Assembly (NCBI GenBank): GCA_004376055.2 | Contig: CP049016.1 | Span: 806,001 to 870,000 of the forward strand | DNA length: 64,000 bases | Direction: 5' to 3' | Origin: Nitrospirales bacterium LBB_01 | Lineage (GTDB): Bacteria > Nitrospirota > Thermodesulfovibrionia > Thermodesulfovibrionales > Magnetobacteriaceae | In this document: positions 5,642 to 45,414 of the stretch, piece after piece | Layout of the letters: each line of letters starts with the position of its first letter | Position numbering within the stretch: the first letter of the stretch is position 1 | Made by a program: the position numbers and the translations under genes | The notes under the pieces: generated by a model | Database searches by the model: none | The model's input: the letters and a program-made list of their open reading frames with translations, nothing else | What the model was told of the DNA's origin: nothing

Positions 5642-5678
5642 TATCAACAACCCCCTTGAAGCGTTTTATTAATACGGG

Positions 5679-5708
5679 ATACTATCACAAAAGCAGCATT
5701 TTATGCAA
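5679..5708 (-). promoter_or_regulatory. Possible sigma-70 promoter of the Wza-like gene
   Basis: On the minus strand TTGCAT (5708-5703), 18 bases, TAGTAT (5684-5679), located about 40 bases before the ATG. Four of six bases match at each box, so this is a modest call. Confidence 0.35.
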
Positions 5709-5776
5709 ACTCCTAATATCCAAAACGATTACATTCTTAGAGTAAGGGACATATGATTTGAAATCTCCTCTTTTTT

Positions 5777-5858
5777 GTCATTCCCGTGAAAACGGGAATC
5801 CAGATATCTTAAAAAAGGTTTTAAAAAGACTGGATTCCTGCTCGTAGGCAGGAATGAC
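5777..5858. repeat. REPIN-like pair, second locus
   Basis: GTCATTCCCG...CGGGAATCCAG at 5777-5804 and ACTGGATTCC...GGAATGAC at 5829-5858, the same repeat family as 1503-1602 but in the opposite facing order and with a 24-base spacer. Sits in the spacer between two minus-strand genes. The rest of 5709-5927 shows no gene. Confidence 0.8.
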
Positions 5859-5927
5859 AAAGAAGGGGCACAGGAATGGCAAAAAAATCCCAAACTTTTC
5901 AATTGGTGTTATTTGTGGGCAGGAGAG

Positions 5928-8399: not shown

Positions 8400-8588
8400 T
8401 AGTTAATCAGCATCACCCTTAATCAATTTTCTGTCCCACGTATAACTTACGTAAGCCGTCTTCTGACGCCACAACATCAATATCACAAGTTAATCCCCCT
8501 TTGTACGCTTTGGTATTATACATAAAAAATAAATCTTTTACAATGCCTGCCGGAAAAATATTGATGAGGTTTGTGATATAGTAAGCGA

Positions 8589-26152: not shown

Positions 26153-27661
26153 TTGCCGGCAAAAGTCGTCCTTGAGGTTACGGAGGGTAAGCTCAAAGGT
26201 AAAAAATATAAATTTTTGGAGCGTACTACCTGCATAATTGGCAGGGGTGTGGACTGCAGCCCCCGCCTGCCCGATGATGATGAACACAGAACTATTTCCC
26301 GCCACCATTGTCTTTTAGATATAAACCCCCCCGGAATAAGAATAAAAGACTTCGGCAGCTTAAACGGCACTTACGTTAACGGACTTAAGATTGGTCAGCG
26401 CCAGAAATCTCAGAACATCAACGAAATATCTCAAATGGAGTTTCCCGAGTATGATCTGAAAAAGGGAGACGAAATCAAACTCGGCACTACTGTCTTTAAA
26501 GTTAAGACGTATGCGCCTCCACTGTGTTCCGTCTGTGGAGCCGACTTACCTCTTGATAGCTCGGGTGAGTTTAAAACAGAGGGCGGCAGTAACTTGTGTC
26601 AAAACTGTGCTGAAAATAAAGATAAAAAGGATACTGCCCCCGCACTTTTGACCTCTTGCACGGGCTGTGGGAAAATCCTCGGTAAAGACAGCGTTGAACA
26701 GTCCTCAGGGCTTTGCACTGTGTGCCGCGACGATCCGATGCAGGTAGTGAAATCTCTTGTGCCTGCTGAGGAAAAAGACAAAGACGCTCTTGAAATTCAC
26801 GGCTATAAGATATTAAAAGAGATTGGGAAGGGCGGAATGGGCGCTGTTTACCTTGCCAAACATATAGAGACTGGAAGGGATGTGGCTCTGAAGGTTATGC
26901 TTTCAGAGGTTGCCGTTAATGAGCGCTCAAAGGAAATGTTTCTTAGAGAGGTGGAAAACACAAAACACTTAAAGCACCCAAACGTTGTGCAGCTGCTTGA
27001 CTACGGCAACTCACGCGGCACCTTTTATTTTACCCTTGAGTACTGCGAGGGGGGCAGCATAGACAAGATAATGATGGCACAGGGCGGACGACTAAGTATA
27101 GAGGAATCCACCAACATGATAATGCAATCCCTTGATGGACTTCACTACGCTCATACACTAGAAATTCCTAACGTCAAACTGGCCGATGGCACAATTGCTA
27201 CACTAAAAGGATTAATCCATAGAGATATAAAACCCACTAATATATTTATAACAGAAGCCGATGGAACAAAATTGGCAAAAATAGCAGACTTTGGATTGGG
27301 TAAAGCATTTGATGCCGCTGGCTTAAGCGGCTATACCCGTACAGGAGCCTCTGCCGGCACCCCTGTTTTTATGTCCAGACAACAGGTTATCAATTTCAAA
27401 TACTCAAAACCGGAGGCTGACGTTTGGGCTATGGCAGCCACTTTTTATTACATGCTTACAGGGCGTTTTCCCAGAGATTTTCCCAAAGGTAAGGACCCAT
27501 GGTACATAGTGCTTCAGAGCAAGCCGGTACCGATACTGAAAAGAAATCCTAATATACCTAAGAAGCTGGCCGAGGTGATAGATGAGGCACTTATAGACCA
27601 GCCTGAAATTAAAATCAAAACCGCTCTTGATTTTAAGCGAGCGCTGGAGGGTGCATTATGA
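26153..27661 (+). CDS. FHA-domain Ser/Thr protein kinase
   Basis: Cytoplasmic eukaryote-type protein kinase of 502 aa. An FHA phosphothreonine-binding domain covers about residues 20-105 with GRG, SRHHC and FGSLNGTYVNG. Two CxxC pairs follow (CSVCGADL...CQNC and CTGCGKIL...CTVC, about 125-200), probably zinc-binding. The kinase domain runs from about 222 to the end: GKGGMGAVYLAK loop, VALKVM lysine, HRDIKPTN catalytic loop near 357 and DFGLGKA near 380. No membrane helix or PASTA domain. The start is TTG 26153 with GGAGGG just upstream. Its stop overlaps the phosphatase gene as ATGA, so kinase and phosphatase are made together. Confidence 0.93.
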   Translation: MPAKVVLEVTEGKLKGKKYKFLERTTCIIGRGVDCSPRLPDDDEHRTISRHHCLLDINPPGIRIKDFGSLNGTYVNGLKIGQRQKSQNINEISQMEFPEYDLKKGDEIKLGTTVFKVKTYAPPLCSVCGADLPLDSSGEFKTEGGSNLCQNCAENKDKKDTAPALLTSCTGCGKILGKDSVEQSSGLCTVCRDDPMQVVKSLVPAEEKDKDALEIHGYKILKEIGKGGMGAVYLAKHIETGRDVALKVMLSEVAVNERSKEMFLREVENTKHLKHPNVVQLLDYGNSRGTFYFTLEYCEGGSIDKIMMAQGGRLSIEESTNMIMQSLDGLHYAHTLEIPNVKLADGTIATLKGLIHRDIKPTNIFITEADGTKLAKIADFGLGKAFDAAGLSGYTRTGASAGTPVFMSRQQVINFKYSKPEADVWAMAATFYYMLTGRFPRDFPKGKDPWYIVLQSKPVPILKRNPNIPKKLAEVIDEALIDQPEIKIKTALDFKRALEGAL

Positions 27662-29412
27662 ATAAAGCGATAACATTCGCAGGCTTAACCGACAAGGGGC
27701 TGGTTCGACAAAGAAATGAGGATAACTTGTCCATGAACCCGGAGCACGGCATGTTTATTGTATCCGATGGTATGGGAGGACATGCCGCAGGAGACCTTGC
27801 CAGTAAAGAAGTCGTAGAAAACCTGCCCGGTCTTTTAATTAAATATATGCAGCACATCGCTAGCCTCAAGGGCCCCGATGCCGTTGAGACAATCTCATCA
27901 GCCCTCACCGAGCTTAATGAACATGTGCGAATTATAAGTAAATCCAAACCGGGGCTTTCCGGCATGGGCGCCACAGTTGTTCTACTGATAATAAAAAACC
28001 GGGAGGCCATTGTCGCCCACATGGGTGACAGTAGAGCATATCTGCTAAGACACGGTTCCCTTACCCAGCTCACCATGGACCACTCTGTCATACAGGTGTT
28101 GATAAACTCTGGAGAAATCACTCAGGCGGATATCCAAAGCCACCCGGCCAGAGGAAAAATCACTCGTTGTATCGGTATGTCCGGGGATGCACTGCCGGAG
28201 ACCAAATTCATGGTACCTCAACCCGGCGACAGGTTCCTGCTTTGCAGCGACGGCCTCACTGGAATGGTCGGCGACAGCGATATAAAAGAAACGCTTATGA
28301 ACATTGCTGACTCAGAAAAAGCCTGTGCCTCACTGATTAAATCAGCCATCACAGCAGGCGGCATTGACAATATCACCGTGATTGTCGTTGACTACGTTTT
28401 AAATGATGACTCTGACAGCGATGTTACTCCTGTAACCATCTCAGACACAGAAAAGTACGGCTCGGGGGAAAAAGACACCGCTGAGACAACAGACTTTGCT
28501 GCTTTGGTCGTAAATCTGGATAAAACACCGCCTCAGTTTAGCTTACCCGTGACCGCTCCTTCTTTTACGATAGGAAGGTCATCAAACAACAATTTAAGTT
28601 TAAAGGTGGACAAGACCGTATCACGCAACCACTGTGTTGTCAGAGTGGAGGGGGGTGAGTTAATTTTGGAGGATCTTGGCAGCCGAAACGGCACATACCT
28701 AAACGGCAAACGCATAAAGGGAGCTGTGAGTCTGCCCTTGCCCTCGTGGTTTGCTGTTGGACGCACAAGGATTGGTATAATCCCTCCCGGCTCTGATGAG
28801 GCGCAGGCTGATGATTTGCTTGATGAGGCCTATAGCTCTGAGGGAAGTATATTAATTCCGCCCAGTGAGTTCTTTGAAGAACGTACGGAGGCGCTTCTGG
28901 TTGTTGACATAGTGGGTTCAACGAGAATTGTAAAACTGGGTGAAACTCACCTTGTTAAAGTCATATCGGCTCTTGGGCAGCTGCTTGAAAAATCCCTGCA
29001 AAATGAAAAACATGCCTTTCTTAAATGCACAGGGGATGGTTTTTTTGCTATTTTTAGTTCGGCCGATGCCGCTCTGAGTGCAGCCCTTAAGCTCTCACCG
29101 GGAATCCTCAGACACATAAAGATTCCGGTTCAAATATCGATAGCTCTTCACTGGGGCTCAGTACGTCTTACTCAGGAGGGCGAACGCACCGGACGAAACG
29201 CTCATGCTGTGTTTTCCCTTGAAGACCTAAGACACAGAGAGCCAAAAGTAAACGAACGCTTGACCCCTCATCACAAAGAATTTATACTTATGACCGACCC
29301 CTTCTGGAGTAACCTCAACCCGGCTTCACAACTTAAGGCACTGCCCATCGGCTCTTATACGCTTAAGGGACTGGATAAGCAGGAAAAGATTTACTACTGG
29401 AAAACTCAATAA
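27658..29412 (+). CDS. PP2C phosphatase-FHA-adenylate/guanylate cyclase-like fusion
   Basis: Three-domain cytoplasmic protein of 584 aa. Residues 1-245 form a PP2C-type Ser/Thr phosphatase with all metal motifs (EDNLSM; SDGMGGHAAGD; GDSRAYL; CSDGLTGMV; GGIDNITVIV). An FHA domain follows at about 285-370 (IGRSSNN; SRNHCVV; GSRNGTYLNG). Residues about 405-580 match class III cyclases: metal aspartates in LVVDIVGSTR and KCTGDGFFAIF. The later motif that should hold Asn and the transition-state Arg reads TGRNAHAVFS, with no Arg four residues after Asn, so cyclase activity is doubtful. It should oppose the adjacent kinases. Confidence 0.9.
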   Translation: MNKAITFAGLTDKGLVRQRNEDNLSMNPEHGMFIVSDGMGGHAAGDLASKEVVENLPGLLIKYMQHIASLKGPDAVETISSALTELNEHVRIISKSKPGLSGMGATVVLLIIKNREAIVAHMGDSRAYLLRHGSLTQLTMDHSVIQVLINSGEITQADIQSHPARGKITRCIGMSGDALPETKFMVPQPGDRFLLCSDGLTGMVGDSDIKETLMNIADSEKACASLIKSAITAGGIDNITVIVVDYVLNDDSDSDVTPVTISDTEKYGSGEKDTAETTDFAALVVNLDKTPPQFSLPVTAPSFTIGRSSNNNLSLKVDKTVSRNHCVVRVEGGELILEDLGSRNGTYLNGKRIKGAVSLPLPSWFAVGRTRIGIIPPGSDEAQADDLLDEAYSSEGSILIPPSEFFEERTEALLVVDIVGSTRIVKLGETHLVKVISALGQLLEKSLQNEKHAFLKCTGDGFFAIFSSADAALSAALKLSPGILRHIKIPVQISIALHWGSVRLTQEGERTGRNAHAVFSLEDLRHREPKVNERLTPHHKEFILMTDPFWSNLNPASQLKALPIGSYTLKGLDKQEKIYYWKTQ

Positions 29413-29422
29413 TGGTGAGCAA

Positions 29423-32400
29423 ATGCCTATCATAACAGCTTGCCCAACTTGCGGGTCAAAATACAGCGTGTCATCATCATTGACTGGTAAAAACGCCAAG
29501 TGTAAAAAGTGTGGCGGCACGTTTAGAATAGAAAAATATGCGGCAGAGCAATCCGTCTCAATGCAGACTATGGAAAAAGGCTCAGGCTGCTCGTGGAACG
29601 TTGGGGATGTAATATTAGACCTCTATGAGGTTTCAGGGCTTTTGGGCGAGGGCGGAATGGGCAAGGTGTATAAGGTTAAACATAAGGGCTGGAATGTTGA
29701 CCTTGCCGTGAAATGCCCAAAGTCGGCGGAGCTGGCAAGAGCGGGGGGATCGGAAAACTTTGAGCGTGAGGCTGAGACGTGGGTCAATCTCGGTCTGCAT
29801 CCGCATATAGTCAGCTGCTACTACGTAAGAGAGGTCGATGAGGTTCCAATGGTTTTTGCCGAATACGTGGATGGCGGGAGTTTAAACGACTGGATTCATG
29901 ACGGCAAACTAAACACACTGGACGCCATCCTTGACGCTTCAATACAGTTTGCATGGGGGCTCCATTATGCTCATGAAAAAGGGCTTATTCACCAGGATAT
30001 AAAACCGGCTAATGTCATGATGACCTCAGAGGGCATAGCCAAAGTTACCGACTTCGGACTTGCCAAAGCCGTGGGAATGTCATACGGTCAGGATAGTTTT
30101 GAAGACTATGGTTTGAATAAATTAGTGACGCCGGGAGGGATGACGCCGGCTTATTGTTCTCCTGAGCAGGCCAATCAGGAACAACTTTCCCTTAAGACCG
30201 ACATTTGGTCATGGGCAGTGTCTGTGCTTGTGATGTTTACCGGGGAGGTGACCTGGCCCTCGGGCACAGTGGCAGGGGAGGCTATGAAGTGGTATCTGGA
30301 AAGTATGGGCGATGGTCTCAGTAATAAGAACCTGCCGGCTATGCCGGATGAGGTAGCGGAACTCCTTACCAGGTGCTTTAAGGAAAACCCAATTGAACGT
30401 CCAGACAGTATGTTTGATGTAGCCCGTGAACTTATAAAAATATATGAGAAGTTAATTGGTAAAAATTATGCTCGCACTGCCCCAGAGGTCAGCACGGCTA
30501 CAGCCGATAGTCTTAATAACCGAGCAGTCTCTCTTCTTGACCTTGGCAGAGAGGAGGAGGCAGAGCGGCTATGGACCGAGGCGCTTCGGATTCAGCCCCA
30601 TCATCCGGAATCCAGCTTTAACCTTGGGCTATCTCAGTGGCGCGGAGCTAAGATAACAGATAACTCACTTGTCAGACTGCTGGATGAGGTTCAGCGCTCC
30701 CACCCTGAAACCCCAATAGTGAAATATCTGACAGGTCTTGTGCATCTGGAAAGAGACGACTGCTCACTTGCTTTAAAATACCTTAACGATATAGACCCAA
30801 CTATAACGCACCTTGAGGACATTAGGTATGCGATAGTTTACGCACAATCGCAAAAAGGGCGTTCAAAGGGCTGCCTTAGAACCTTTACCGGACATGATGA
30901 GCCTGTAACCGCCGTAGGGTTAAGTGCAGACGGCAGAATTGCCATGTCGGGTAGTCTTGATAAGACACTTCGTCTTTGGGATACGGAAACCGGAACATGT
31001 CTGAAAGTTTTTATAGGGCATACAGACGGCATCCTATCGGCATATATGCTGCCCGACGCATCGCTTATAATCTCCGGCAGCCGGGACAAAACGGTACGAG
31101 TGTGGGATGTTAAAAGCGGCTACTGTCTCCACACTTTTAAAGGCCACATGGATGGAGTTACCTCGGTGTTTATAGAGCCGGGCGGGCGTAACCCGCTATC
31201 GGGCAGCATGGATGAGACAATAAAACTATGGGATACAAAAACAGGCACTTATATGAGGTCTTTTATCGGGCACAAAGGAGATATAACATCGGTTTATCTT
31301 ACAAAGGATGGAAAATATGTAGCGTCATCGTGCAAAGACGGTACAATACGGCTTTGGGATGTTTCCTCTCTTAGATGTCTGCACACATTTAAGGGGCATA
31401 TCGGTGCTGTTAACTTTATGTCGGTAAGTAAAAACGGTCAGACAATGGTCACAGCTGGAGCTGACAAGAGCGTAAAATTGTGGGACTTGACCACCCGTAT
31501 ATACAGTAAAACCATGTATGGTCATGGTGAGGCGGTAAGCGGGGTTTTTGTGGACTCAGTAGGTAAGACATTTGTCTCTGTAAGTCATGATAAGACAATG
31601 ATCCAGTGGGCAGTTGACTCCGGCAGAGGTATGCGCACCTTTGAGGGACACTCGGAGTCAGTTAACGCAGCGGCTCTGTCAGAGGATGGCAGATTTGCCA
31701 TTACAGGAGGCGATGATAAACAAGTAAAATTCTGGGATGTCACCTCCAACAGGGAATCTTTCCGAGCACCTATGATGCTCTCTCAGGTACTTAAGAGCGA
31801 GGCTGCGTTTTCAGCCATGGCAGCCTACTCGCAGGAACTTAAGGAGGCAAAGAAGTGTTTTAAAGAGGGGGATTTTAAAAAGGCGGCAGCTCATATAAGA
31901 AAAGCACGCTCACAGCGCGGCTATAGCCGTGACATCGAGGCGTTGACTATGTGGATGGAACTGTATTTGCGTTTCCCTCGTCACAAATTTGTAGGCGGCT
32001 GGGAGGGTGTTACATTTAAAGGGCACAGTGGATCGGTCACTTCAATTTCGGTTGACAGTCACGGAAAACTTTTGCTTACCGGCAGCATAGATAAAACCAT
32101 TCGGCTTTGGGATATAGAAAGCGGTGATTTAATTAACACATTTAAGGGATTCCCTGCCGGCATAACCAGCGTGCATCTGAGCGAGGACGGTCTGTATGCA
32201 GTGGCAGGCACTATGGATAAAACCATAAGCTTTTGGGACGTACAAAAGGGTAAGCAGATAAGAGCTATCAAAGGGCATGAGGGAGTGGTACGCAGCGTAT
32301 ATCTCAGCAACGATTGTCATTTGGCTGTTACCTCAGGGGACGATAAAACTGTAAAGGTTTGGGATGTTACCACAGGGCGTCTTATTAGATCGTATGATGA

Positions 32401-33130
32401 CCACACTGACCCTGTCATGGCTGTTTCATTAAATGCCGACAACAGGTTTTTTATAACAGGTTGTGCTGATGGTAAACTTAAGGTGTGGGAGATGACAACA
32501 GCTAACTTTGTGAAAGCTCTTGCCACTTATGAAGGACACACAGATGTAATAAACACGGTGGCGTTAAGTCTGGACGGAAAACTTGTGGTAACCGGCAGCG
32601 AGGATATGACAATAAGGGTGTGGGATCTGTCTTTAGGAAAATGCGTAAAGAAACTTGAGGGCCACACGGCAGGGGTTACCACAGTAAGCATAAGTGCCGA
32701 CAACAACTTCTTACTTTCTGGTAGTAACGACAATGCTGTAAGACTTTGGGATATCAGGTCGGAAAGCTGTGTGCGAGTATTTAAGGGGCATCAGTTAGGG
32801 ATAAACTCGGTATTGTTGAGCCGTCATGGCAGACATGCTTTCTCAGCAGGCGATGACGGCGAAATAAAGCTATGGACGCTTGACTGGGAAATAGACGATA
32901 CAAAAGAGGGCAGGTGGGATGACTCAGCTTATGGATATCTTGAGCTGTTCCTTGCCTCCTTTGTGCCTTATGTATCGGGGAGCCTTGCCCGCCGGGGAAA
33001 ACCAGGCTGGAAAGATAAGGACCTTGAAGAACTGTTCTATAAGCTTGGATGTGTCGGCTGCGGCTGGATCTCTCATGAAGTAATTAAAAAAGAAATAAAA
33101 ATACTTGAAGGCAAAAAGTTTTCAAAATAA
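29423..33130 (+). CDS. Zinc ribbon-Ser/Thr kinase-TPR protein with 14 WD40 repeats
   Basis: Large cytoplasmic protein of 1235 aa. An N-terminal zinc ribbon (CPTCGSKY...CKKCGGTF, MJ0042 type) leads into a kinase domain at about 62-330 with GEGGMGKVYKVK, DLAVKCPK and DFGLAKA. The catalytic loop is HQDIKPAN instead of HRD. A TPR-like stretch at about 355-480 precedes seven WD40 blades (about 482-776), a helical linker (about 780-860) and seven more blades (about 862-1155), for example GSLDKTLRLWD and GSNDNAVRLWD. This fits two complete seven-bladed propellers. A C-terminal unassigned domain of about 75 aa ends it. Last gene of the kinase-phosphatase-kinase operon, 10 bases after the phosphatase gene. 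Confidence 0.92.
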   Translation: MPIITACPTCGSKYSVSSSLTGKNAKCKKCGGTFRIEKYAAEQSVSMQTMEKGSGCSWNVGDVILDLYEVSGLLGEGGMGKVYKVKHKGWNVDLAVKCPKSAELARAGGSENFEREAETWVNLGLHPHIVSCYYVREVDEVPMVFAEYVDGGSLNDWIHDGKLNTLDAILDASIQFAWGLHYAHEKGLIHQDIKPANVMMTSEGIAKVTDFGLAKAVGMSYGQDSFEDYGLNKLVTPGGMTPAYCSPEQANQEQLSLKTDIWSWAVSVLVMFTGEVTWPSGTVAGEAMKWYLESMGDGLSNKNLPAMPDEVAELLTRCFKENPIERPDSMFDVARELIKIYEKLIGKNYARTAPEVSTATADSLNNRAVSLLDLGREEEAERLWTEALRIQPHHPESSFNLGLSQWRGAKITDNSLVRLLDEVQRSHPETPIVKYLTGLVHLERDDCSLALKYLNDIDPTITHLEDIRYAIVYAQSQKGRSKGCLRTFTGHDEPVTAVGLSADGRIAMSGSLDKTLRLWDTETGTCLKVFIGHTDGILSAYMLPDASLIISGSRDKTVRVWDVKSGYCLHTFKGHMDGVTSVFIEPGGRNPLSGSMDETIKLWDTKTGTYMRSFIGHKGDITSVYLTKDGKYVASSCKDGTIRLWDVSSLRCLHTFKGHIGAVNFMSVSKNGQTMVTAGADKSVKLWDLTTRIYSKTMYGHGEAVSGVFVDSVGKTFVSVSHDKTMIQWAVDSGRGMRTFEGHSESVNAAALSEDGRFAITGGDDKQVKFWDVTSNRESFRAPMMLSQVLKSEAAFSAMAAYSQELKEAKKCFKEGDFKKAAAHIRKARSQRGYSRDIEALTMWMELYLRFPRHKFVGGWEGVTFKGHSGSVTSISVDSHGKLLLTGSIDKTIRLWDIESGDLINTFKGFPAGITSVHLSEDGLYAVAGTMDKTISFWDVQKGKQIRAIKGHEGVVRSVYLSNDCHLAVTSGDDKTVKVWDVTTGRLIRSYDDHTDPVMAVSLNADNRFFITGCADGKLKVWEMTTANFVKALATYEGHTDVINTVALSLDGKLVVTGSEDMTIRVWDLSLGKCVKKLEGHTAGVTTVSISADNNFLLSGSNDNAVRLWDIRSESCVRVFKGHQLGINSVLLSRHGRHAFSAGDDGEIKLWTLDWEIDDTKEGRWDDSAYGYLELFLASFVPYVSGSLARRGKPGWKDKDLEELFYKLGCVGCGWISHEVIKKEIKILEGKKFSK

Positions 33131-35645: not shown

Positions 35646-37028
35646 ATGGCAGCTATAACATCACCTACGGGAACAACATCATCAGGCGGCACTATAACGT
35701 CAAGTGTTGGGCCATTTTCGGGGATAAACACAGGGGATATAATTAACAAGCTTATGTCTATAGAGCAGCAGCCCTATGATAAGCTTACCACTAAAATACA
35801 GACAGATCAGACCGAGATAAGCTCATTTGGGCAGATAGCGTCCAATTTAACTTCTCTTAAAACAGCTCTTACTAATATTCAGTCTAAGAATCTCAACACA
35901 TATACTGCTGCGTCATCTGACACCGGTTCTGTAAAGGTTACTGCTGACTCCACAGTAAACGCTGGGCAGTATAGCATAAAGGTTTATCAATTGGCACAGT
36001 CAGAAAAGCTCTATTCTCAATCTGCTACATCTGTTTCTGCTGTTTATAATTCCGGCACGATTACTGTCAAAAACGGCAGCCATAGCACCACCATAAACAT
36101 CAGTACCTCCAATAAGACTCTTTCCGGTATCAGGGACGCCATAAATTCCGCTGCTACCGACGTCAGCGCCACGATAATCAGCGATGGTTCCGGTTACCGT
36201 TTAATGCTTAACTCTGTAGGCGGCACATCATCTAGCCCGCTGTCTGTGTCTGTTTCAGATACCGGAGGGAATGCAAAGTCCTTGAGTGCCTTTAGTTTTG
36301 ACCCAGCAAATCCTAACCCAACAGACGGCAGCGGCATGACTTTACTTCAGTACCGCCAGGACGCCAAATTTTCAGTGGACGGTTTCCAGCTTACAAGCTC
36401 CACAAACAAAGTCACTAACGCTTTAAGCGGATTGTCTATTGATCTTCTTAACACTACGTCTAACAGAGCTGTTACCATCTCTGTTGACGCCAACTCCATA
36501 TCAAGCTCAGCCAATATGACAACCTTCATAGATACCTATAATTCTACTCTTGCCTCGCTAAAGCAGCTTAGAACAGCCGGACAGCCTCTTCAATATGACA
36601 GCACTGTTTCATCAATGATAGATACTATGAGAAACGTTTTTAGCTCCTCAGGGGATCCAAGTAATTCTGTAGCCTCTTATGGCATTATGCACAACAAGGA
36701 CGGTACGCTGGCTATAGACACCACAAAAATGGATACTGCAATCCGCAGGAATATGGGGGCTTTTTATAAGGCGATAAATTCTCTCTCCAGTTCTTTTTCA
36801 GCCAGGATAACTAATATTCTGACTAACACCATCACTGCTAAAGATGATACTCTTAATACGCAGATTAAACAGATGACTGACAAACAGACATCAATGCAGG
36901 AAATTTTGGACCTGAAACGGGCTGCCTATGTTAAAAAATTCTCAGACATGGAAGCATCTATTGGACAAATGCAATCACAAAGCAGCAGCTTAAGTAATTT
37001 AACAAGTAGCACAAGTTCAACAAAATAA
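35646..37028 (+). CDS. fliD: Flagellar filament cap protein FliD
   Basis: Hook-associated protein 2, exported through the flagellar channel; it caps the growing filament and folds incoming flagellin. 460 aa, in the family range. N-terminal coiled region with the HAP2 signature (GINTGDIINKLMSIEQQPYD, TKIQTDQTEISSFGQI), a Ser/Thr-rich beta domain in the middle, and a C-terminal helix region (QIKQMTDKQTSMQEILDLKR, YVKKFSDMEASIGQMQSQ). AAGGAG before the ATG. Between flaG and fliS as in many flagellates. Confidence 0.95.
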   Translation: MAAITSPTGTTSSGGTITSSVGPFSGINTGDIINKLMSIEQQPYDKLTTKIQTDQTEISSFGQIASNLTSLKTALTNIQSKNLNTYTAASSDTGSVKVTADSTVNAGQYSIKVYQLAQSEKLYSQSATSVSAVYNSGTITVKNGSHSTTINISTSNKTLSGIRDAINSAATDVSATIISDGSGYRLMLNSVGGTSSSPLSVSVSDTGGNAKSLSAFSFDPANPNPTDGSGMTLLQYRQDAKFSVDGFQLTSSTNKVTNALSGLSIDLLNTTSNRAVTISVDANSISSSANMTTFIDTYNSTLASLKQLRTAGQPLQYDSTVSSMIDTMRNVFSSSGDPSNSVASYGIMHNKDGTLAIDTTKMDTAIRRNMGAFYKAINSLSSSFSARITNILTNTITAKDDTLNTQIKQMTDKQTSMQEILDLKRAAYVKKFSDMEASIGQMQSQSSSLSNLTSSTSSTK

Positions 37029-37054
37029 TTCTTTTTATCACAGGAGGATAGTGA

Positions 37055-37480
37055 ATGCAAAATATCTCTTATGCGCAGAATGCCTACAGAAGCATTGACA
37101 TTGGCAGTTTATCTCCACTTGACCTCATAATTAAGTTATATGACGGAGCTATAAGCTTTTTATCAAAGGCGGCACTCGGCATAGAGAAAAAAGATAAGAT
37201 AGCCAAGATTAACTACATAAACAAGACGCGCATGATTTTAGAGGAACTTCTCTCTTCATTAAATGTGGAGGCAGGCGGTGAGGTAGCTCTGCATCTGCGA
37301 GACCTTTATACCTATATGATTGTTGAGCTTACACGTGCTAATGCTAATAACTCTATCGATAAGGTTTATCATGTTCAGGAACTTATGAGAACTTTAAAAA
37401 GTGCATGGCAGGAAATAAAGATTACAAACACTCCCGTATCGGAGTCGTATGCTATCAAATCAATAAACAGTTCCCACTAA
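37055..37480 (+). CDS. fliS: Flagellin export chaperone FliS
   Basis: All-helical cytoplasmic chaperone, 141 aa, that binds the C-terminus of unassembled flagellin. NAYRSIDIGSLSPLDLIIKL and LYDGAISFLSKA are the family start, and the last third LRDLYTYMIVELTRANANN matches as well. A strong AGGAGG site precedes ATG 37055. Its presence implies that a flagellin gene exists elsewhere in the genome. Confidence 0.94.
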   Translation: MQNISYAQNAYRSIDIGSLSPLDLIIKLYDGAISFLSKAALGIEKKDKIAKINYINKTRMILEELLSSLNVEAGGEVALHLRDLYTYMIVELTRANANNSIDKVYHVQELMRTLKSAWQEIKITNTPVSESYAIKSINSSH

Positions 37481-37533
37481 ACACATAATGGGAATTAGGA
37501 TATTAGTTATTAGCGCTGCCGTGACGTCTCCCC

Positions 37534-38430
37534 TTGGATGTTTTAAACTGCCGGATACTGTCTGTTGACACGCAATGTCATCTTCTGCTACATTACGCAA
37601 GGAGCTTGTACTACTACAACAAGAGTCTGCTTTTCTATGAGACTTGGACGGAGCCGCAACAGATGTCTATAACAAAAGGTGAAAGTGTAATTTGTAAGCT
37701 GATGCCTAAACCAGAGCAATACCTTGCCTCTGTGGATGACTTGCGCGACAACATGATGTTTTTAAAAATTAAAGACGGCACTTCTAATTTGCGCGTTGGA
37801 ATGAGTCTTCTTGTGGCATCAGAAACTATGGACTATTACACGGAGCTTACTGCCTTAAAGGACAGTATCGCTGTCTTACGAATTCAAGGGAGTGAAAAGA
37901 GGGATTATTTCAGAGTGGATGATACCTTTCCTGTGGTTATAACAAAGATAGCAGGGAACCCGTTAGAGAGAAAGTCTAAAATCATATCTGAGTACGGCCT
38001 TGAGTTATCAGATATGCGGACATACACTGTAGATGTGCCGGATGAGAATATCAGTCCGGTGCTTTGGAAAATGCTTGTGGATATAAATATGAAAATTGGT
38101 TTGATTTTGGACAGGTTGTTTTTAGAGAATGAGGGATTGATGAAAGCGCCGGAGAGATCAGTAAGCATAAGCGGCTCCGGAGTGCGGTTACTGCTTGAAG
38201 AGAAATTTGAGCTTCATGATAATGTATCAGTGAAAATGCTTTTGCCCTCATCGCCGCCAATAGGGGTTTCAGTTATTGGCGTTGTAGTGCTTTCAGAGGG
38301 TGTCATGGGGGCGCAGTTTGATACCGCTATAAGTTTCACAAATATTGAAGAGGGAGTAAGGGACGAAATTATACAGTACACCCTTAAGAGGCAGCGAGAG
38401 ACACTGAGAGCACAGAGGGGGCTTAAGTAA
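37534..38430 (+). CDS. PilZ-domain protein (YcgR-like flagellar regulator)
   Basis: Cytoplasmic protein, up to 298 aa, likely to bind cyclic di-GMP and act on the motor. An N-terminal YcgR-type domain (ITKGESVICKLMPKPEQYLA) is followed by the linker with R-x3-R in KRDYFRVD, and a PilZ barrel where SVSISGSG stands in for the (D/N)xSxxG motif with Ser in the first place. That change leaves ligand binding slightly uncertain. The longest frame starts at TTG 37534 without a good ribosome site; ATG 37663 is a possible start, and a TTGACA-N18-TACATT promoter-like sequence at 37565-37594 would fit it. Six bases separate it from motA, which suits a flagellar brake role. Confidence 0.7.
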   Translation: MDVLNCRILSVDTQCHLLLHYARSLYYYNKSLLFYETWTEPQQMSITKGESVICKLMPKPEQYLASVDDLRDNMMFLKIKDGTSNLRVGMSLLVASETMDYYTELTALKDSIAVLRIQGSEKRDYFRVDDTFPVVITKIAGNPLERKSKIISEYGLELSDMRTYTVDVPDENISPVLWKMLVDINMKIGLILDRLFLENEGLMKAPERSVSISGSGVRLLLEEKFELHDNVSVKMLLPSSPPIGVSVIGVVVLSEGVMGAQFDTAISFTNIEEGVRDEIIQYTLKRQRETLRAQRGLK

Positions 38431-38436
38431 CAGATT

Positions 38437-39285
38437 ATGCTGGTTATCGTTGGAATGGTCATAACTTTAGGCGCGATACTGGGCGGCTATCTGATGGAGC
38501 ACGGCAATGTTGCCATGCTTGTCAACATCCCGGAGTTTGTTATATTGGGCGGCTGCGCAGTCGGCTCTTTAGTAGTGTCCAGTCCTCCAGCGGTTATCAA
38601 GCTTATTATAGGAAGCTTGCCTACGATTTTTGGCAAAGGCGGTGCTGAAAAACATGAGTATCTGGAGTTATTGTCCTTGCTATTCATTGTGTTTTCAAAA
38701 GTTAGAAAAGAGGGCTTAATATCAATAGAACAAGACGTGGAGGATCCGAGTAAGAGCGCAATATTTACAAAATATAAAAGTGTTTTGGAAAACAAAAAAG
38801 CTATGGGATTTATTTGTGATAACCTTAAAGTTATAATAACGACCAATATGCCGCCGCATGAGCTTTCCGATTTACTTGAGATAGACATAGAGGCTAATGC
38901 CCATGAAGCGCTCCTGCCCTCCCAAGGTATAAGCAAAGTGGGTGATTCAATGCCTGGGTTTGGTATCGTTGCTGCAGTTTTAGGAGTTGTTGTAACAATG
39001 GGAAAAATCAGTGAGCCTCCGGAGGTGCTGGGGCATAGTATTGGTTCAGCGCTTGTTGGAACCTTTCTTGGTATATTGATGGCGTATGGGTTTTTTGGCC
39101 CGGTATCGACAAATCTGGAGCTTAAGGCAAAAGAGGGCGAGGTTTATTTTCATGTAATAAAGGCAGCACTGGTAGCTTTTGTAGGGGGAGCGGCGCCTCA
39201 GATAGCTGTCGAATCTGGCAGACGTGCTATCCCTAACTCAGAAAGACCGTCTTTTGCAGAACTTGAGGAGGCGATAAGAAAATGA
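38437..39285 (+). CDS. motA: Flagellar motor stator protein MotA
   Basis: Inner-membrane stator subunit, 282 aa, forming with MotB the ion channel that drives rotation. Four membrane helices are visible (starting VIVGMVITLGAILGGYL, EFVILGGCAVGSLVV, SMPGFGIVAAVLGVVVTMG, IGSALVGTFLGILMAYGFF). The conserved channel proline is in SMPGFGI. The large cytoplasmic loop at about 65-170 carries the charged residues that contact FliG. ATGA overlap with motB shows coupling. Confidence 0.95.
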   Translation: MLVIVGMVITLGAILGGYLMEHGNVAMLVNIPEFVILGGCAVGSLVVSSPPAVIKLIIGSLPTIFGKGGAEKHEYLELLSLLFIVFSKVRKEGLISIEQDVEDPSKSAIFTKYKSVLENKKAMGFICDNLKVIITTNMPPHELSDLLEIDIEANAHEALLPSQGISKVGDSMPGFGIVAAVLGVVVTMGKISEPPEVLGHSIGSALVGTFLGILMAYGFFGPVSTNLELKAKEGEVYFHVIKAALVAFVGGAAPQIAVESGRRAIPNSERPSFAELEEAIRK

Positions 39286-40118
39286 AAGGACAAACTATAA
39301 TCATTAAAAAGGTAAAAAAAGGCGGCCATGCTGCTGCTCATGGCGGCTCGTGGAAAGTTGCATATGCCGACTTTGTTACGGCTATGATGGCTTTTTTTCT
39401 GCTTATGTGGCTTATTAATATGACGTCTCCTGAGAAAAAACTTAAGCTGTCCACATATTTTAAGACTGTTGGGATTATGGAGGCAGCTGGTTTAGGTTTT
39501 ATGGGTAAGGGGAAGGATATTCTTGATACCAGTATTGTTAATCCTGCAGAGGAATTAGCAGAGAAAAAAGGCGACAGCTTCTACCAGTTAAACAAAGAGG
39601 AGTTTAAGGAAAAGCTTAAAAAGGACATAGAAGATAAATTAGGCGCAGTAAAGGATCAGGTGATGGTTGATGTGATAGAGGGCGGCGTACGGATAAACAT
39701 CGTAGATAAATTAGGAAAACCCATGTTTACCATTGGCAGTTCAGAGTTGGCCCCTGAAGCAAAGTCAGTTTTAAAGCTCGTATCAGAGGAAATAAGAGAG
39801 TTTAAAGATCTCAAGATATCGGTAGAAGGACACACCGATTCTACAGCATACTCCGGCAATAAATATACCAACTGGGAGCTTTCCACTGACAGGGCATCGG
39901 CAGCACGCAGGGAGTTGGAAAAAAACAACATTGATCCAAATGATTTGGCTAAGGTGTCAGGTTTTGCGGCAACTCAGCCTCTTATCGCTGATAAACCAAA
40001 TGACCCCAGAAATAGAAGGATAAGCTTACTACTTTTGAGTACCGATCAGGCTGCTGTTGAAAAACTGACGGGTAAGAAAAGCGGAAAAACAAGTTCAAAC
40101 AAAACAGAAACCCATTAA
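39282..40118 (+). CDS. motB: Flagellar motor stator protein MotB
   Basis: Stator subunit with one membrane helix and a periplasmic peptidoglycan-binding OmpA/MotB domain, 278 aa. The helix region SWKVAYADFVTAMMAFF contains the ion-carrying Asp in YADF. A plug-like stretch follows, and the OmpA domain at about 150-260 includes LKISVEGHTDS and LSTDRASAARREL. The basic N-terminus KKVKKGGHAAAHGGSWK is typical. Type of coupling ion cannot be decided from this sequence. Confidence 0.95.
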   Translation: MKGQTIIIKKVKKGGHAAAHGGSWKVAYADFVTAMMAFFLLMWLINMTSPEKKLKLSTYFKTVGIMEAAGLGFMGKGKDILDTSIVNPAEELAEKKGDSFYQLNKEEFKEKLKKDIEDKLGAVKDQVMVDVIEGGVRINIVDKLGKPMFTIGSSELAPEAKSVLKLVSEEIREFKDLKISVEGHTDSTAYSGNKYTNWELSTDRASAARRELEKNNIDPNDLAKVSGFAATQPLIADKPNDPRNRRISLLLLSTDQAAVEKLTGKKSGKTSSNKTETH

Positions 40119-40135
40119 AAAGGGAGGTGTTTACT

Positions 40136-40489
40136 ATGAGTGGTAAGTTTGAGATAGAGGTTAAAGGCTCTGTGATAATAGCGCACTACGAGGGAGAGAT
40201 GGACAGTGCTCTTGTAAACGACTCTGCAACGCAGATTGAGGAGCTGTTGGATAAGACAGAGGCAAACAAGATACTTTACGATACGCTGAAGATGTCAAAT
40301 CCACCAATGAAGCTGGCACTCCAGATGAAGAGCTTTGATGCTCGCATTAAAAATAAGGTGATAAAGAGTGCTACAGTGGTTCCTGGCGCTGCCACTGCGC
40401 TTAAGGCCTCCATTGCCTTTGTGCTTTCAAAACACCATAAGGTATTTCATAACGACTATGACGCCGCTATTGAATGGTTAAATGCCTGA
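40136..40489 (+). CDS. SpoIIAA-like/STAS-type protein
   Basis: Small soluble protein of 117 aa with the alternating strand-helix pattern of the STAS/SpoIIAA-like group (FEIEVKGSVIIAHYEGEMDS at the start, DAAIEWLNA at the end). Related domains are switched by Ser/Thr phosphorylation in sigma-factor control. GGGAGG lies before ATG 40136, so the GTG at 40127 is not used. It sits between motB and an FHA Ser/Thr kinase gene, a position that makes it a candidate kinase target; this is inference. Confidence 0.6.
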   Translation: MSGKFEIEVKGSVIIAHYEGEMDSALVNDSATQIEELLDKTEANKILYDTLKMSNPPMKLALQMKSFDARIKNKVIKSATVVPGAATALKASIAFVLSKHHKVFHNDYDAAIEWLNA

Positions 40490-40529
40490 GAGTCTTTTCA
40501 TACTACAATCACTAAGAGCATAGGGGACT

Positions 40530-42017
40530 ATGAAAGTAACTCTTGATGTAACAGCCGGTCCTAACACCGGAGAGAGATTCATATTTACCGAATCGGACAC
40601 TTTTTTAGTCGGCAGATCAAGAAAGGCGCACCTGAGGCTTAACAAAAAAGACGATCTTTTCATTTCAAGAACTCATTTCATTTTAGAGATAAGACGCAAT
40701 ATCTGTTACATAACCGATATAAACAGCACTAACGGTACCCTTGTAAATGACAAACGGATAGACAGAGCGGAACTTCACGATGATGATGAGATTACAATAG
40801 GCAATACAAAAATACTGGTGCATATTGATCAGGACGACACCCAGAGGTACCACTACGTGTTTTGCAGTGCGTGTAAGGAAAACGTTGACCACGAGGTGGA
40901 TGAGAGCGTTCCTCAGAATGAGCGGGAATTTATGGCATATACGTGCAGGTCGTGCAGGGCTTTAGAGGAGGAGCGTAAGGTAAGCAAAAAACACACTGAT
41001 TCACACAAACATTATACCTGTGTAAGTTGTAACACTGACATGACAGATGCTGCAAACTATGACGGCAGGGCGGCAGAGTTTGAAGACAGTATTTATCTGT
41101 GTACAAACTGTGAGTGGAAATGGCGCACTAAAACACCTACGTTTGAAGCAGGAGATGCTTATGTGGTGTTAAGTATCATAGGGCGCGGCGCAATGGGGAC
41201 AGTGTATAAGGTAGTTGAGGTCAACACACGGCGTGTGTATGCGCTTAAGAGAGTTAACATTGACGGCAAGAAAAACTCCTCTGGGCTGAAACTCTTTGCA
41301 CGGGAGATGGAAATCCAGTCACGTTTGAATCATAAGAATCTGATTAAATATCTTGACAGAGGAGAGGCCGGAAATATGCCCTTCTTAGTCAGTGAGTTTA
41401 TGCCGGGAGGGGATTTGGGTAAACTCATAAAGATGACGCTTAAAGGCCCGCTGCCTCCACAGTATGCCTGTAAAATTATAATACAGGTTTTAAACGGCCT
41501 GCAGTTCATCCATTTAAATGGATACGTACACAGAGATCTAAAACCCTCAAATTTTCTTTTAAATAGAGCTTACACAGACACTGGGCTGACGATAAAAATC
41601 ACAGACTACGGACTTGCAAAATCTTATGAAGAGGCTGGAAACTCACTGTATGATTTTACCCAGACAGGGACGTTTGGCGGCTCTTTGATGTTTCTATCGC
41701 CGGAGCAGATTACAAATTATAAATTTGTGAAACCGCCATCGGATATTTACTCTGTGGGCGTAAGTTTGTATTACATGTTGACAGCCAAATACACTGTTAA
41801 GTATCCGCCTGAATCCAGCCGTTCCGGTAAGAAGTGGAGGCATCCGCTTGATATGGTTTTAGAGGATGCGCCGATTCCCATATTAGAGCGTAACAAAGAC
41901 CTGCCCGATGCCTTAGCCGCTGTTGTTGATAAATCTGTCACAAAAGACGAGTATAAAAGATTTCAGTCGGCTTCTGAATTTAGAGAGGCTCTCTGTGAAG
42001 CTATTGACGGGTTGTAA
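40530..42017 (+). CDS. Second FHA-domain Ser/Thr protein kinase
   Basis: Cytoplasmic kinase of 495 aa with the same order as the gene at 26153: FHA (about 20-95; VGRSRK, SRTHFIL, NSTNGTLVND), two Cys-pair segments (CSACKENV...CRSC and CVSCNTDM...CTNCEW, about 112-200) and a kinase domain (about 208-490; GRGAMGTVYKV, HRDLKPSN). The metal-binding DFG is DYG here (ITDYGLAKSY). No membrane segment. Together with the SpoIIAA-like protein and motAB it forms a run on one strand. Paralogy with the 26153 kinase is clear from shared layout including the cysteine modules. Confidence 0.92.
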   Translation: MKVTLDVTAGPNTGERFIFTESDTFLVGRSRKAHLRLNKKDDLFISRTHFILEIRRNICYITDINSTNGTLVNDKRIDRAELHDDDEITIGNTKILVHIDQDDTQRYHYVFCSACKENVDHEVDESVPQNEREFMAYTCRSCRALEEERKVSKKHTDSHKHYTCVSCNTDMTDAANYDGRAAEFEDSIYLCTNCEWKWRTKTPTFEAGDAYVVLSIIGRGAMGTVYKVVEVNTRRVYALKRVNIDGKKNSSGLKLFAREMEIQSRLNHKNLIKYLDRGEAGNMPFLVSEFMPGGDLGKLIKMTLKGPLPPQYACKIIIQVLNGLQFIHLNGYVHRDLKPSNFLLNRAYTDTGLTIKITDYGLAKSYEEAGNSLYDFTQTGTFGGSLMFLSPEQITNYKFVKPPSDIYSVGVSLYYMLTAKYTVKYPPESSRSGKKWRHPLDMVLEDAPIPILERNKDLPDALAAVVDKSVTKDEYKRFQSASEFREALCEAIDGL

Positions 42018-42083
42018 CTGTGCTAACAAAAAAAACAAGCATTTTTTGTTGTTAATGTTGTAAAATCGTATCTAAAAGCGGGA

Positions 42084-43109
42084 ATGGTGCAAATGTTTGA
42101 CGGAAAGACAATATTAGTAACTGGGGGGACAGGGTCCTTTGGTAAGGAATTAGCAAAATTTATATTAAAAAAATATAAAGTAAAAAAACTAATAATATTT
42201 AGCAGAGATGAGTTTAAGCAGTATGAAATGTCCGCACAATTTAAAACTCCTCAGTATCCGATACGATATTTTATTGGCGATATCAGAGACCGTGAGAGGC
42301 TCTACAGGGCTTTTAACGGTGTTGATTATGTAATACATGCTGCCGCTATGAAACACGTTTTAGCTGCCGAGTATAATCCTCTTGAGGTGGTTAAGACAAA
42401 CATAATAGGGGCTGAAAATATTGTTGACGCAGCTATAGATAACGGTGTGAAAAAAGTTATAGCGCTCTCTACCGATAAGGCGGTGAGTCCGCTAAATCTG
42501 TACGGCGCCACTAAGCTTGCAATGGAAAAGATTTTTGTGGCAGCGGGCGCTTATGTTGGCGGAAAGGACACTAAGTTTTCCATAGTGCGGTACGGCAACG
42601 TGGTAGGAAGCAGAGGGAGTGTTGTCCCTCTTTTTCATAAACTCATTAGGTCTGGAATTAAGGAATTACCCATAACCGATGAACGTATGACGCGGTTTTG
42701 GATAACAATGGAGGAGTCGGTTGAGCTGGTTTTGGAGGCGCTTGATGAGTCGGTTGGGGGTGAGGTGTTTGTTCCAAAAATTCCAAGCATGAAAATTACA
42801 GATTTGGCAAAGGCTGTTTGCGGCGACTGTAAGTTTAAGTTTTCGGGTGTGAGACCGGGTGAGAAAATCCACGAGACCCTTATCTCTGAGGATGAGGCAC
42901 GCACAACAATAGAGTACCAACCGCACGGCAGGGATATGTATGTAATCGTGCCGCACATGAACTTTGAGTCTAAAGCTACTGCTAAATACAGAGGATTTAA
43001 AAGACTCAAGGAGGACTTCACATATAGGAGCGACACAAATGACGCATGGCTTACCATTGAACAGATGCGAACCTATATTGAAGGTTTGATTAAAAATAAT
43101 AACATATGA
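42084..43109 (+). CDS. pseB: UDP-GlcNAc 4,6-dehydratase (inverting), PseB
   Basis: First enzyme of pseudaminic acid synthesis: removes water from UDP-GlcNAc and inverts C5. Extended short-chain dehydrogenase of 341 aa with ILVTGGTGSFGKELAK nucleotide motif, FSRDEFKQYEM, HAAAMKHV and STDKAVSPLNLYGATK (the Tyr is replaced in the usual way for this group by the DKA motif). ERMTRFWITMEE is also characteristic. Start at ATG 42084, or ATG 42093. Overlaps pseC as ATGA. Confidence 0.93.
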   Translation: MVQMFDGKTILVTGGTGSFGKELAKFILKKYKVKKLIIFSRDEFKQYEMSAQFKTPQYPIRYFIGDIRDRERLYRAFNGVDYVIHAAAMKHVLAAEYNPLEVVKTNIIGAENIVDAAIDNGVKKVIALSTDKAVSPLNLYGATKLAMEKIFVAAGAYVGGKDTKFSIVRYGNVVGSRGSVVPLFHKLIRSGIKELPITDERMTRFWITMEESVELVLEALDESVGGEVFVPKIPSMKITDLAKAVCGDCKFKFSGVRPGEKIHETLISEDEARTTIEYQPHGRDMYVIVPHMNFESKATAKYRGFKRLKEDFTYRSDTNDAWLTIEQMRTYIEGLIKNNNI

Positions 43110-44272
43110 CTGCCTTCATTCCCTACGGCAGACAGCTAATTCAAGATGACGATATAGAAGCAGTGCTGGAAACCCTGAGGAGTGATTTTATCACTCAGGG
43201 ACCTCGTGTTGCAGAATTTGAAGAGGCGCTGTCGTCTTACTGCGAAGCTAAGTACGCAGTGGTTTTTAACTCAGGCACATCAGCCCTTCATGCTGCATAC
43301 TTTGCCGCTGGTTTAAGAGCCGGAGATGAGTTTATAACAAGTCCGATTACCTTTTCCGCTACGGCTACGGCTGGTATTTTAACCGGCGCAAGGGCTGTGT
43401 TTGCTCCTGTTGAACCGGATACCGGAAATTTGGATGTGTCACAACTTTCAAATCTTATCGCGCCCAGAACAAAACTCATAGTCCCTGTGCATTTTGCAGG
43501 GCATCCGGTTAATGTTGAAGCTCTCTTTGCTGTGATTAAGGGAGGCTCTATCGTTATAGTGGAGGATGCCTGTCACGCTCTTGGCACTTTGTATAAAGAC
43601 AGGATAGATGGGAACTGGCAGAAAGTTGGAGCGCTTAAACACTCTCACATGTGCGCCTTTAGTTTTCATCCGGTTAAGGCAATTACCACAGGTGAGGGCG
43701 GTGCTGTTACCACAAATGATGTGTCATACTATAAGAAACTAAAACTATTTGGCAACCACGGCATAACTAAACTCTCCGATAATTTTATTAATCCAGAGCG
43801 CGCTCCCTGGTACTATGAGATGCAAACCATTGGTCTTAACTATCGGATGACTGACATTCAAGCCGCACTTGGCATATCGCAGCTGAGAAAGCTGGATGTT
43901 TTTATAGAGCGGAGACGCTCTATCGCTAATACCTATAATAACGCTTTTGCCGCTAACCGGTATTTTTATTTGCCCCCTGAGAGAGATTACGCAAAATCAT
44001 CATATCACCTCTACCATATAAGACTTAAAGATGAATATTTTCAGAGAAAACTTGACATATTTAATAAATTGAGAGCACTTGGACTTGGCGTTCAATGTCA
44101 TTACATTCCGGTCTATAGACATCCGTACTACAGCGCACTTCAGTATAAAAGCATAGAGAGCGCCGAGGATTTTTATAGCAGGGAGATTTCAATTCCCATA
44201 TTTCCTGCAATGAGTGACGCCGATGTTCAATTTGTAATAGAAAAAGTGTTTGAAACGTTTGAAGGGATTTAG
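43106..44272 (+). CDS. pseC: UDP-4-amino-4,6-dideoxy-altrosamine transaminase, PseC
   Basis: PLP-dependent aminotransferase, second step of pseudaminic acid synthesis, 388 aa. DegT/DnrJ/EryC1 fold with VVFNSGTSALHAAYFAAG, the cofactor Asp in VEDACHALG and the PLP-lysine in FHPVKAITTGEGG. NYRMTDIQAALGISQL is another family block. Coupled to pseB by overlapping start and stop. Confidence 0.93.
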   Translation: MTAFIPYGRQLIQDDDIEAVLETLRSDFITQGPRVAEFEEALSSYCEAKYAVVFNSGTSALHAAYFAAGLRAGDEFITSPITFSATATAGILTGARAVFAPVEPDTGNLDVSQLSNLIAPRTKLIVPVHFAGHPVNVEALFAVIKGGSIVIVEDACHALGTLYKDRIDGNWQKVGALKHSHMCAFSFHPVKAITTGEGGAVTTNDVSYYKKLKLFGNHGITKLSDNFINPERAPWYYEMQTIGLNYRMTDIQAALGISQLRKLDVFIERRRSIANTYNNAFAANRYFYLPPERDYAKSSYHLYHIRLKDEYFQRKLDIFNKLRALGLGVQCHYIPVYRHPYYSALQYKSIESAEDFYSREISIPIFPAMSDADVQFVIEKVFETFEGI

Positions 44273-44277
44273 TTTAA

Positions 44278-45414
44278 GTGGCGGCAACTAAACAACGAGC
44301 GGCTGCTTTTGTTCCAGTCAGACTAAGCTCAAGCAGACTGCCCGAAAAACATCTTAAGTTAATTGGTACAAGACTCCTTATTTCATGGGTAATACATAGG
44401 CTTAAGGCGGCTCATGAGCTTGATGAGATAGTAATCTGCACGACCTCGGAAAAACAAAATGAGAAACTGAAAGAGATTACCGATTTAGAGCATGTATCGC
44501 TTTTTGTTTATGACGGAAATCCTGACGATGTTGTAGGGAGGTTGACTGCTGCCTCAGTTAAACATAACGCTGATATATGTGTATTGGCAAGCGGAGACTG
44601 CCCGCTTCTAAGCAGCGAGACAATAGACTTAATGGTAAGAATGCTTAAGGAAAATCCTGAAGCAGATAACGTATTATTTTCAGATATTGACGGTAGGTTA
44701 CCCATACATGAGGGTATAATAGTGTCCAGACGGACACTGTGGGAGCTTGCCGATAAATTTTCAGATACACCCGCCTTAAGGGAGCATCAGTTTCCAGTTT
44801 TTTTAAGAAACGTCTATCCTGATAAATTTTCTCACATAAAAAATATTTATGTGAGAGATGATGATATTTTTTATAGCATAAGCCATCGCATCTCTATTGA
44901 CACACCGGATGATCTAAAATTCATAAACAGGCTCTACACTATGTTGCAAACAGCAGGAGAAGAGTTTAATTTAAGAAATGCAATCGCCGCCATTTTCAAA
45001 AACCCTGATATTGTCAATATTAATAAACACGTTTACCGGAAAACCCTTGAGGATGTGACAGTCAGAGTTGTTTTTTTTGTTGCTGGTGACAACAACCATC
45101 TACAACTATCCATTGAGGTTGCCGATGTTTTAGTTAACAGATACGGCATAGGGGTAAGGGTTTTAACTTTTGATGAGTCATCAAAAAAGATTATAGAAGA
45201 GAGCGGCTTAAGGGCGGATGTTTCGGCTGCCGATAGACTTGTGGATTTTCATAAGGAATTTCCATTTAATGCAGTTGTTATTGACACTGACAGTAATACT
45301 CATAAGCTTATAGATTCAATCAAAAAATCTGTTAATGCTAAGGTCATAATACTATCAGAGCATGGCGGGGCAGAGAACTCTGCTAAAGAAATATTTCAGG
45401 TTTTGGGAAACTAA
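44278..45414 (+). CDS. PseF-like cytidylyltransferase fused to a half PseG-like domain
   Basis: Protein of 378 aa beginning at GTG 44278. Residues 1-235 are a nucleotidyltransferase related to CMP-pseudaminate synthase PseF and SpsF (FVPVRLSSSRLPEKHLKLIG; VLASGDCPLLSSETID). The C-terminal 120 residues start a new fold (VVFFVAGDNNHLQLSIEVAD) that resembles only the N-terminal half of the UDP-sugar hydrolase PseG, with a His in the expected place but without the flanking glycines. PseG is normally about 340 aa, so this domain is truncated. Five bases after pseC. pseH and pseI are not in the window. Confidence 0.75.
   Translation: MAATKQRAAAFVPVRLSSSRLPEKHLKLIGTRLLISWVIHRLKAAHELDEIVICTTSEKQNEKLKEITDLEHVSLFVYDGNPDDVVGRLTAASVKHNADICVLASGDCPLLSSETIDLMVRMLKENPEADNVLFSDIDGRLPIHEGIIVSRRTLWELADKFSDTPALREHQFPVFLRNVYPDKFSHIKNIYVRDDDIFYSISHRISIDTPDDLKFINRLYTMLQTAGEEFNLRNAIAAIFKNPDIVNINKHVYRKTLEDVTVRVVFFVAGDNNHLQLSIEVADVLVNRYGIGVRVLTFDESSKKIIEESGLRADVSAADRLVDFHKEFPFNAVVIDTDSNTHKLIDSIKKSVNAKVIILSEHGGAENSAKEIFQVLGN

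Follow-up and report, generated by a model that had tools for sequence, protein, structure and literature searches.

Class III cyclases are known as enzymes, and the locus described here raises the question of what such a domain does when it is joined in one chain to a PP2C phosphatase and an FHA domain and no longer has all the catalytic residues expected of a cyclase. In the window, the whole 64,000-nucleotide stretch of the Nitrospirales bacterium LBB_01 genome that was analyzed, translation of positions 27658-29412 (+) yields a single ORF of 584 amino acids with no internal stops, laid out as follows.

27658..29412, + strand: PP2C-FHA-class III cyclase-like fusion protein, 584 aa
27658..28395, + strand: PP2C phosphatase domain, residues 1-246 (boundary approximate), from Pfam, fold match and conserved residues
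28441..28458, + strand: linker motif around Thr264, [DE]T[EV]x with a hydrophobic residue at T+3, from column conservation
28510..28785, + strand: FHA domain, residues 285-376 (boundaries approximate), from Pfam and invariant signature residues
28834..29409, + strand: class III cyclase-homology domain, residues 393-584 (approximate), with the conserved lead-in EGSILIPPSEFFEERTEALL, from AlphaFold2 and structure alignment

The first two domains are recognized by Pfam, with PP2C matches to PF00481 (1.1e-11; 45.3 bits, cutoff 20.3) and PF13672 (1.3e-10) and an FHA match to PF00498 (5.4e-17; 62.4 bits, cutoff 20.7). The third is left unnamed by Pfam and by NCBIfam: the Pfam cyclase family (Guanylate_cyc) gave no match to the protein at E ≤ 0.1, and the gene is absent from the PF00211 matches of its own genome. 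Thus, the cyclase assignment of this domain needed other evidence. An AlphaFold2 model of residues 389-584, built from a 30-sequence alignment, has a mean pLDDT of 88.6 and aligns best with Rv1900c (1ybu_B; Z 20.2, rmsd 2.1 Å, 157 residues aligned), followed by Ma1120 bound to ATP analogues at Z 18-19. Foldseek gave a best E of 4.8e-10, and the top listed structural matches are all class III cyclases. In addition, phmmer matched the fusion protein to the 3mr7 and Ma1120 cyclases, and profile matches of the cyclase domain include Ma1120 (2.7e-7) and Rv1900c. The C-terminal domain has the class III cyclase fold, as structure prediction had been proposed to check. Together with the ORF, the Pfam matches and the orthologues described below, this upholds the proposal of the first-pass annotation that the three domains lie in one chain. 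The full-length model has a pTM of 0.45, a value at which the relative placement of the domains and their coupling are not predicted.

A frameshift or assembly artefact is ruled out by 15 other full or near-full orthologues (48-93% identity), which carry the fusion in one frame. By the cyclase-domain profile, the fusion is present in 16 of the 19 sampled genomes of the family and in six of seven genera, one copy (G003) being a fragment at a contig end. The carriers are relatives of Ca. Magnetobacterium and Ca. Magnetominusculus in the Nitrospirota, spanning the window's genus and related genera, and those with names include Ca. Magnetobacterium casense and Ca. Magnetominusculus xianensis (Nitrospirota according to NCBI). 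Across the phylum, 396 sampled genomes gave no fusion-type match outside the family. Named genome contigs were scanned with peptide patterns of the window protein only, which reaches close relatives and bears little on other phyla; a plasmid collection gave 261 matching records, none over 80% of the query and the best of those listed mainly to the PP2C part. A literature search covering few subscription journals found no paper that describes this exact three-domain order, and a survey published in 2025 on PP2C domains of bacteria (PMC12088040) does not use the word "cyclase" in its main text. The fusion had been called unusual, which holds for bacteria as judged from the genomes sampled and the literature located, but not more widely, because a single chain of fungal Cyr1 combines PP2C with a class III cyclase, and there the cyclase is active while the PP2C is described as a likely pseudophosphatase (PMC12002173). 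Cyr1 is the closest architectural analogue and a mirror image, with a probably dead PP2C and an active cyclase as opposed to the apparently intact PP2C and degenerate cyclase seen here, and it carries RA and LRR rather than FHA. The protein is apparently a new bacterial combination of known domains with a conserved, degenerate cyclase.

The PP2C domain has conserved R17, E21, D22, D37, G38, D124, D198, D237 and N238, of which the set comprising the metal-binding Asp and phosphate Arg residues of PPM phosphatases (R17, D37, G38, D124, D198, D237) is retained in every alignment row that covers it. It matches known PP2C structures with Z up to 29.8, consistent with a PPM fold. By profile, fold and conserved residues the domain is complete, as had been claimed, and it is apparently a working protein phosphatase. 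Its core and metal residues are shared with the Stp1/PstP-type phosphatases M. tuberculosis PstP, tPphA and Stp1 (Z 28-30 over 216-245 residues; phmmer 8e-40 to PstP), which, unlike the fusion protein, lack a cyclase domain; with the NCBIfam Stp1 model the fusion protein reaches 225.7, just short of the cutoff (230). An anti-phage role gains no clear support, the profiles matched in PADLOC being generic ones for PP2C and kinases. The profile PDLC04518 (candidate defence protein PDC-M21C, PP2C-like, from a candidate defence gene set) matches the PP2C part at 3.8e-16 and an ordinary PP2C of the same genome (L097) likewise at 5e-15. Within the cyclase part, residues 524-567 also match PDC-M21C weakly, apparently by chance. 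Identity as a Pycsar cyclase was also dropped, the profile match having an E of only 0.005-0.03.

The positions that decide what the cyclase-like domain can do were located by alignment.

28906..28908, + strand: D417 codon, first metal Asp (VVDIVGST), invariant
29023..29025, + strand: K456 codon, adenine-contact Lys position, invariant in orthologues
29035..29037, + strand: D460 codon, second metal Asp (KCTGDGFF), invariant
29182..29184, + strand: E509 codon, base-contact Asp column (Asp in intact paralogues)
29203..29205, + strand: H516 codon, transition-state Asn column
29215..29217, + strand: S520 codon, transition-state Arg column

D417, D460, K456 and E509 are invariant in 15/15 fusion orthologues, so both metal Asp motifs are kept, as the first-pass annotation had stated. 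The base-contact pair is Lys456/Glu509, where adenylyl cyclases have Lys/Asp; Lys-Glu pairs have been reported in uncharacterized mycobacterial relatives (PMC4886424). The transition-state Asn and Arg columns are His516 and Ser520 in all 15 orthologues, a combination not expected of a cyclase enzyme. The first-pass annotation was correct that the catalytic Arg is missing, its place being taken by S520, but it took N514 of GRNAHAVFS for the catalytic Asn, and that column is H516, two residues downstream. In the same alignment, Asn and Arg are both kept by nine HEAT-cyclase paralogues and by a ClpB/C-like fusion (L060), and Arg is kept in every other covering row, even in those without the Asn. 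Because His also replaces the transition-state Asn in the Rv1900c cyclase (PMC4886424), His516 does not by itself show inactivity, and the Arg-to-Ser change is the stronger sign of lost cyclase activity. Loss of the Arg is not proof of inactivity; R510 and R525 are also invariant and could in principle substitute. Compared with mycobacterial Rv1900c and Ma1120, the domain thus has a common fold (Z 20.2 and 19) and metal Asp pair but differs in the Ser at the catalytic Arg column and in its partner domains.

Since the domain has lost catalytic residues and kept those that contact metal and ATP, the reading we prefer, which we regard as evenly balanced between true and false, is that the protein may be a Ser/Thr phosphatase regulated by a degenerate, nucleotide-binding pseudo class III cyclase rather than a maker of cAMP. 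With the Asn register corrected to H516, the earlier suggestion of a nucleotide sensor in place of an enzyme remains compatible with these residues. It is unlikely, though it deserves weight, that the domain does no more for the phosphatase than provide a scaffold for dimerization or protein docking, without binding nucleotide. Such a role would fit the loss of catalytic residues, and the invariant patches EGSILIPPSEFFEERTEAL and HAVFS(L/V)EDLRH, which lie beyond the metal- and base-contact positions, could be contact surfaces. However, the four metal- and base-contact positions are invariant (4/4) against ~35% of columns across the domain as a whole, a pattern that speaks against a scaffold alone.

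No other part of the protein is as constrained as the cyclase-like domain. When the window is compared with two congeners, dN/dS is 0.025 and 0.013 for residues 393-584, 0.093 and 0.070 for PP2C, and 0.028 and 0.042 for FHA, the values of the second pair being rough because dS is saturated. This strongest constraint in the protein indicates that the domain is functional and not decaying. In a tree of cyclase domains, the fusion orthologues form one clade (support 98/91) on a long stem (1.66), and a long stem with later constraint is as expected for a change of function. The HEAT-cyclases fall near this clade, but the joining node is weak (46/46) and the branches are long, which leaves sister status unsupported.

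The HEAT-repeat class III cyclase paralogue in the genome of the fusion (L003/L096) shows cyclase-domain kinship at E ~1e-13 to 1e-17 and a common EGSI...TEAILVVDL lead-in, but it carries HEAT repeats rather than PP2C-FHA, keeps Asn and Arg, and adjoins a cyclic-nucleotide-binding gene. At 7134-9188 of L096, the HEAT-cyclase has complete catalytic residues and lies beside a small cNMP-binding gene (9306-9692), an arrangement also seen in L093, L094 and L095. Apart from the fusion protein, the genome (3.27 Mb) has five PF00211 domains, with the Asn/Arg pattern intact in four, and 29 cNMP-binding matches, several of them pieces of one gene. Cyclic-nucleotide signaling thus probably exists independently of the fusion protein, and cyclic-nucleotide synthesis need not depend on it. 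Elsewhere in this genome (L097, 1.897-1.902 Mb), the gene at 8229-9563 (+) encodes a PKG-like combination of a Ser/Thr kinase with a cyclic-nucleotide-binding domain, and opposite it on the - strand (7177-7974, 6442-7173 and 5386-6237) are a PP2C gene, an FHA gene and a response-regulator-like cNMP-binding gene; a similar PP2C, FHA and kinase-cNMP set occurs in L099 of G009. In L060, a ClpB/C C-terminal-like segment is continuous with a class III cyclase domain (1486-2499, -), adjoins a Ser/Thr kinase-TPR gene and gives a weak PycC (Pycsar cyclase) profile match of 1.5e-8.

In mammalian adenylyl cyclase two halves jointly form the active site. By analogy, the fusion domain could supply the metal Asp half of a composite heterodimer site, the partner being a cyclase in which Asn and Arg are intact, such as the HEAT-repeat paralogue, an arrangement we consider quite unlikely. 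The kept and lost residues would fit one complete composite site, and a HEAT-cyclase, which keeps D, K, D, D, N and R, is found in 14 of the 16 fusion genomes; moreover, three Ca. Magnetominusculus-type genomes have separate PP2C and FHA genes near it. The two genes do not keep company strictly, however: a HEAT-cyclase match is missing from G007 (92% complete), which carries the fusion, whereas the fusion is missing from G009 and G017, which carry a HEAT-cyclase, and in the window's genome the two genes are unlinked. That the homodimer is a non-canonical active nucleotide cyclase, with His516 standing in for Asn as in Rv1900c, its nearest structural match (PMC4886424), and another residue, for which the invariant R510 and R525 are candidates, replacing Arg, is very improbable given a Ser that is fixed in 15/15 orthologues at a column that is Arg in all the other alignment rows covering it.

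The FHA domain and the gene neighborhood suggest where such a phosphatase may dock. The FHA domain shows the G-R, S-x-x-H and N-G signature in addition to the profile match, with G306, R307, S322, R323, H325, N344 and N349 invariant. Ahead of it, residue 264 is Thr in 15 of 16 rows, the exception being Val in the most distant orthologue (L021), with D/E before it, E/V after it and, in most rows, a hydrophobic residue at +3. The linker holding Thr264 has a mean column conservation of 0.41 and is disordered in the model, with pLDDT <50 at residues 250-278. This arrangement of an FHA domain after a flexible segment with an E/D-T motif resembles the GarA/OdhI switch, in which the motif is phosphorylated by a Ser/Thr kinase and, in GarA, the protein's own phosphothreonine is bound by its own FHA domain (PMC5448819). 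By this analogy, drawn from sequence, the Thr264 motif may be an in-cis FHA ligand or a kinase site; GarA, unlike the fusion protein, has neither PP2C nor cyclase. Two kinase genes flank the fusion gene.

26153..27661, + strand: FHA - Cys-rich - Ser/Thr kinase gene, 502 aa, TTG start as listed (Pfam FHA 2e-14, Pkinase 1e-40)
29423..33130, + strand: Ser/Thr kinase - WD40 repeat gene, 1235 aa (Pfam), downstream of the fusion in most, not all, relatives

The upstream kinase has readable HRDIKP, DFG and VALK motifs, and its gene overlaps the fusion gene by 4 bases (ATGA). In every relative whose sequence covers that spot, its orthologue immediately precedes the fusion gene, though it is partial in L043. 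A flagellar function, suggested by nearby fliD and motAB, is unsupported, as only the kinase and kinase-WD40 genes consistently adjoin the fusion; the flagellar and sugar genes of the window were not found beside it in the relatives compared. Within the window, 35646-45414 holds FliD, PilZ-domain, MotA and MotB genes, a second FHA-Ser/Thr kinase (40530-42017), and then sugar-nucleotide genes (epimerase, DegT aminotransferase, cytidylyltransferase) that resemble those of flagellin glycan synthesis, and 45634-48999 encodes an SNF2-type helicase with high PADLOC scores (DpdE 1.5e-127, ZorD 2.5e-102).

In the mechanism we propose for a nucleotide-regulated phosphatase, the cyclase-like domain would dimerize and bind a metal-NTP without turnover, most likely ATP as judged from the Lys/Glu pair, and NTP occupancy would alter PP2C activity or access. 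The FHA domain would dock the phosphatase on phosphothreonine, either that of its own linker at Thr264, in a GarA-like self-binding switch, or that of proteins on which the kinase encoded by the overlapping gene has acted. This kinase and the fusion protein would form a kinase/phosphatase module, a pairing supported by the retention of the two genes together across the family. Nucleotide binding, dimerization, cyclase inactivity and coupling to PP2C are what we infer, the binding from the residues alone.

More tentatively, and in our estimate a possibility on the doubtful side, the family may have either a phosphatase gated by ATP, and so by energy state, through a dead cyclase dimer, or a single complex with the HEAT-cyclase that combines dephosphorylation with cNMP synthesis. 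Being family-wide and strongly constrained, with transition-state residues lost and an intact phosphatase attached, the protein offers a good opportunity to test whether a cyclase fold can become a nucleotide sensor. If this is true, nucleotide state would be tied directly to Ser/Thr phosphorylation in magnetotactic-lineage Nitrospirota, the reverse of the arrangement in fungal Cyr1.
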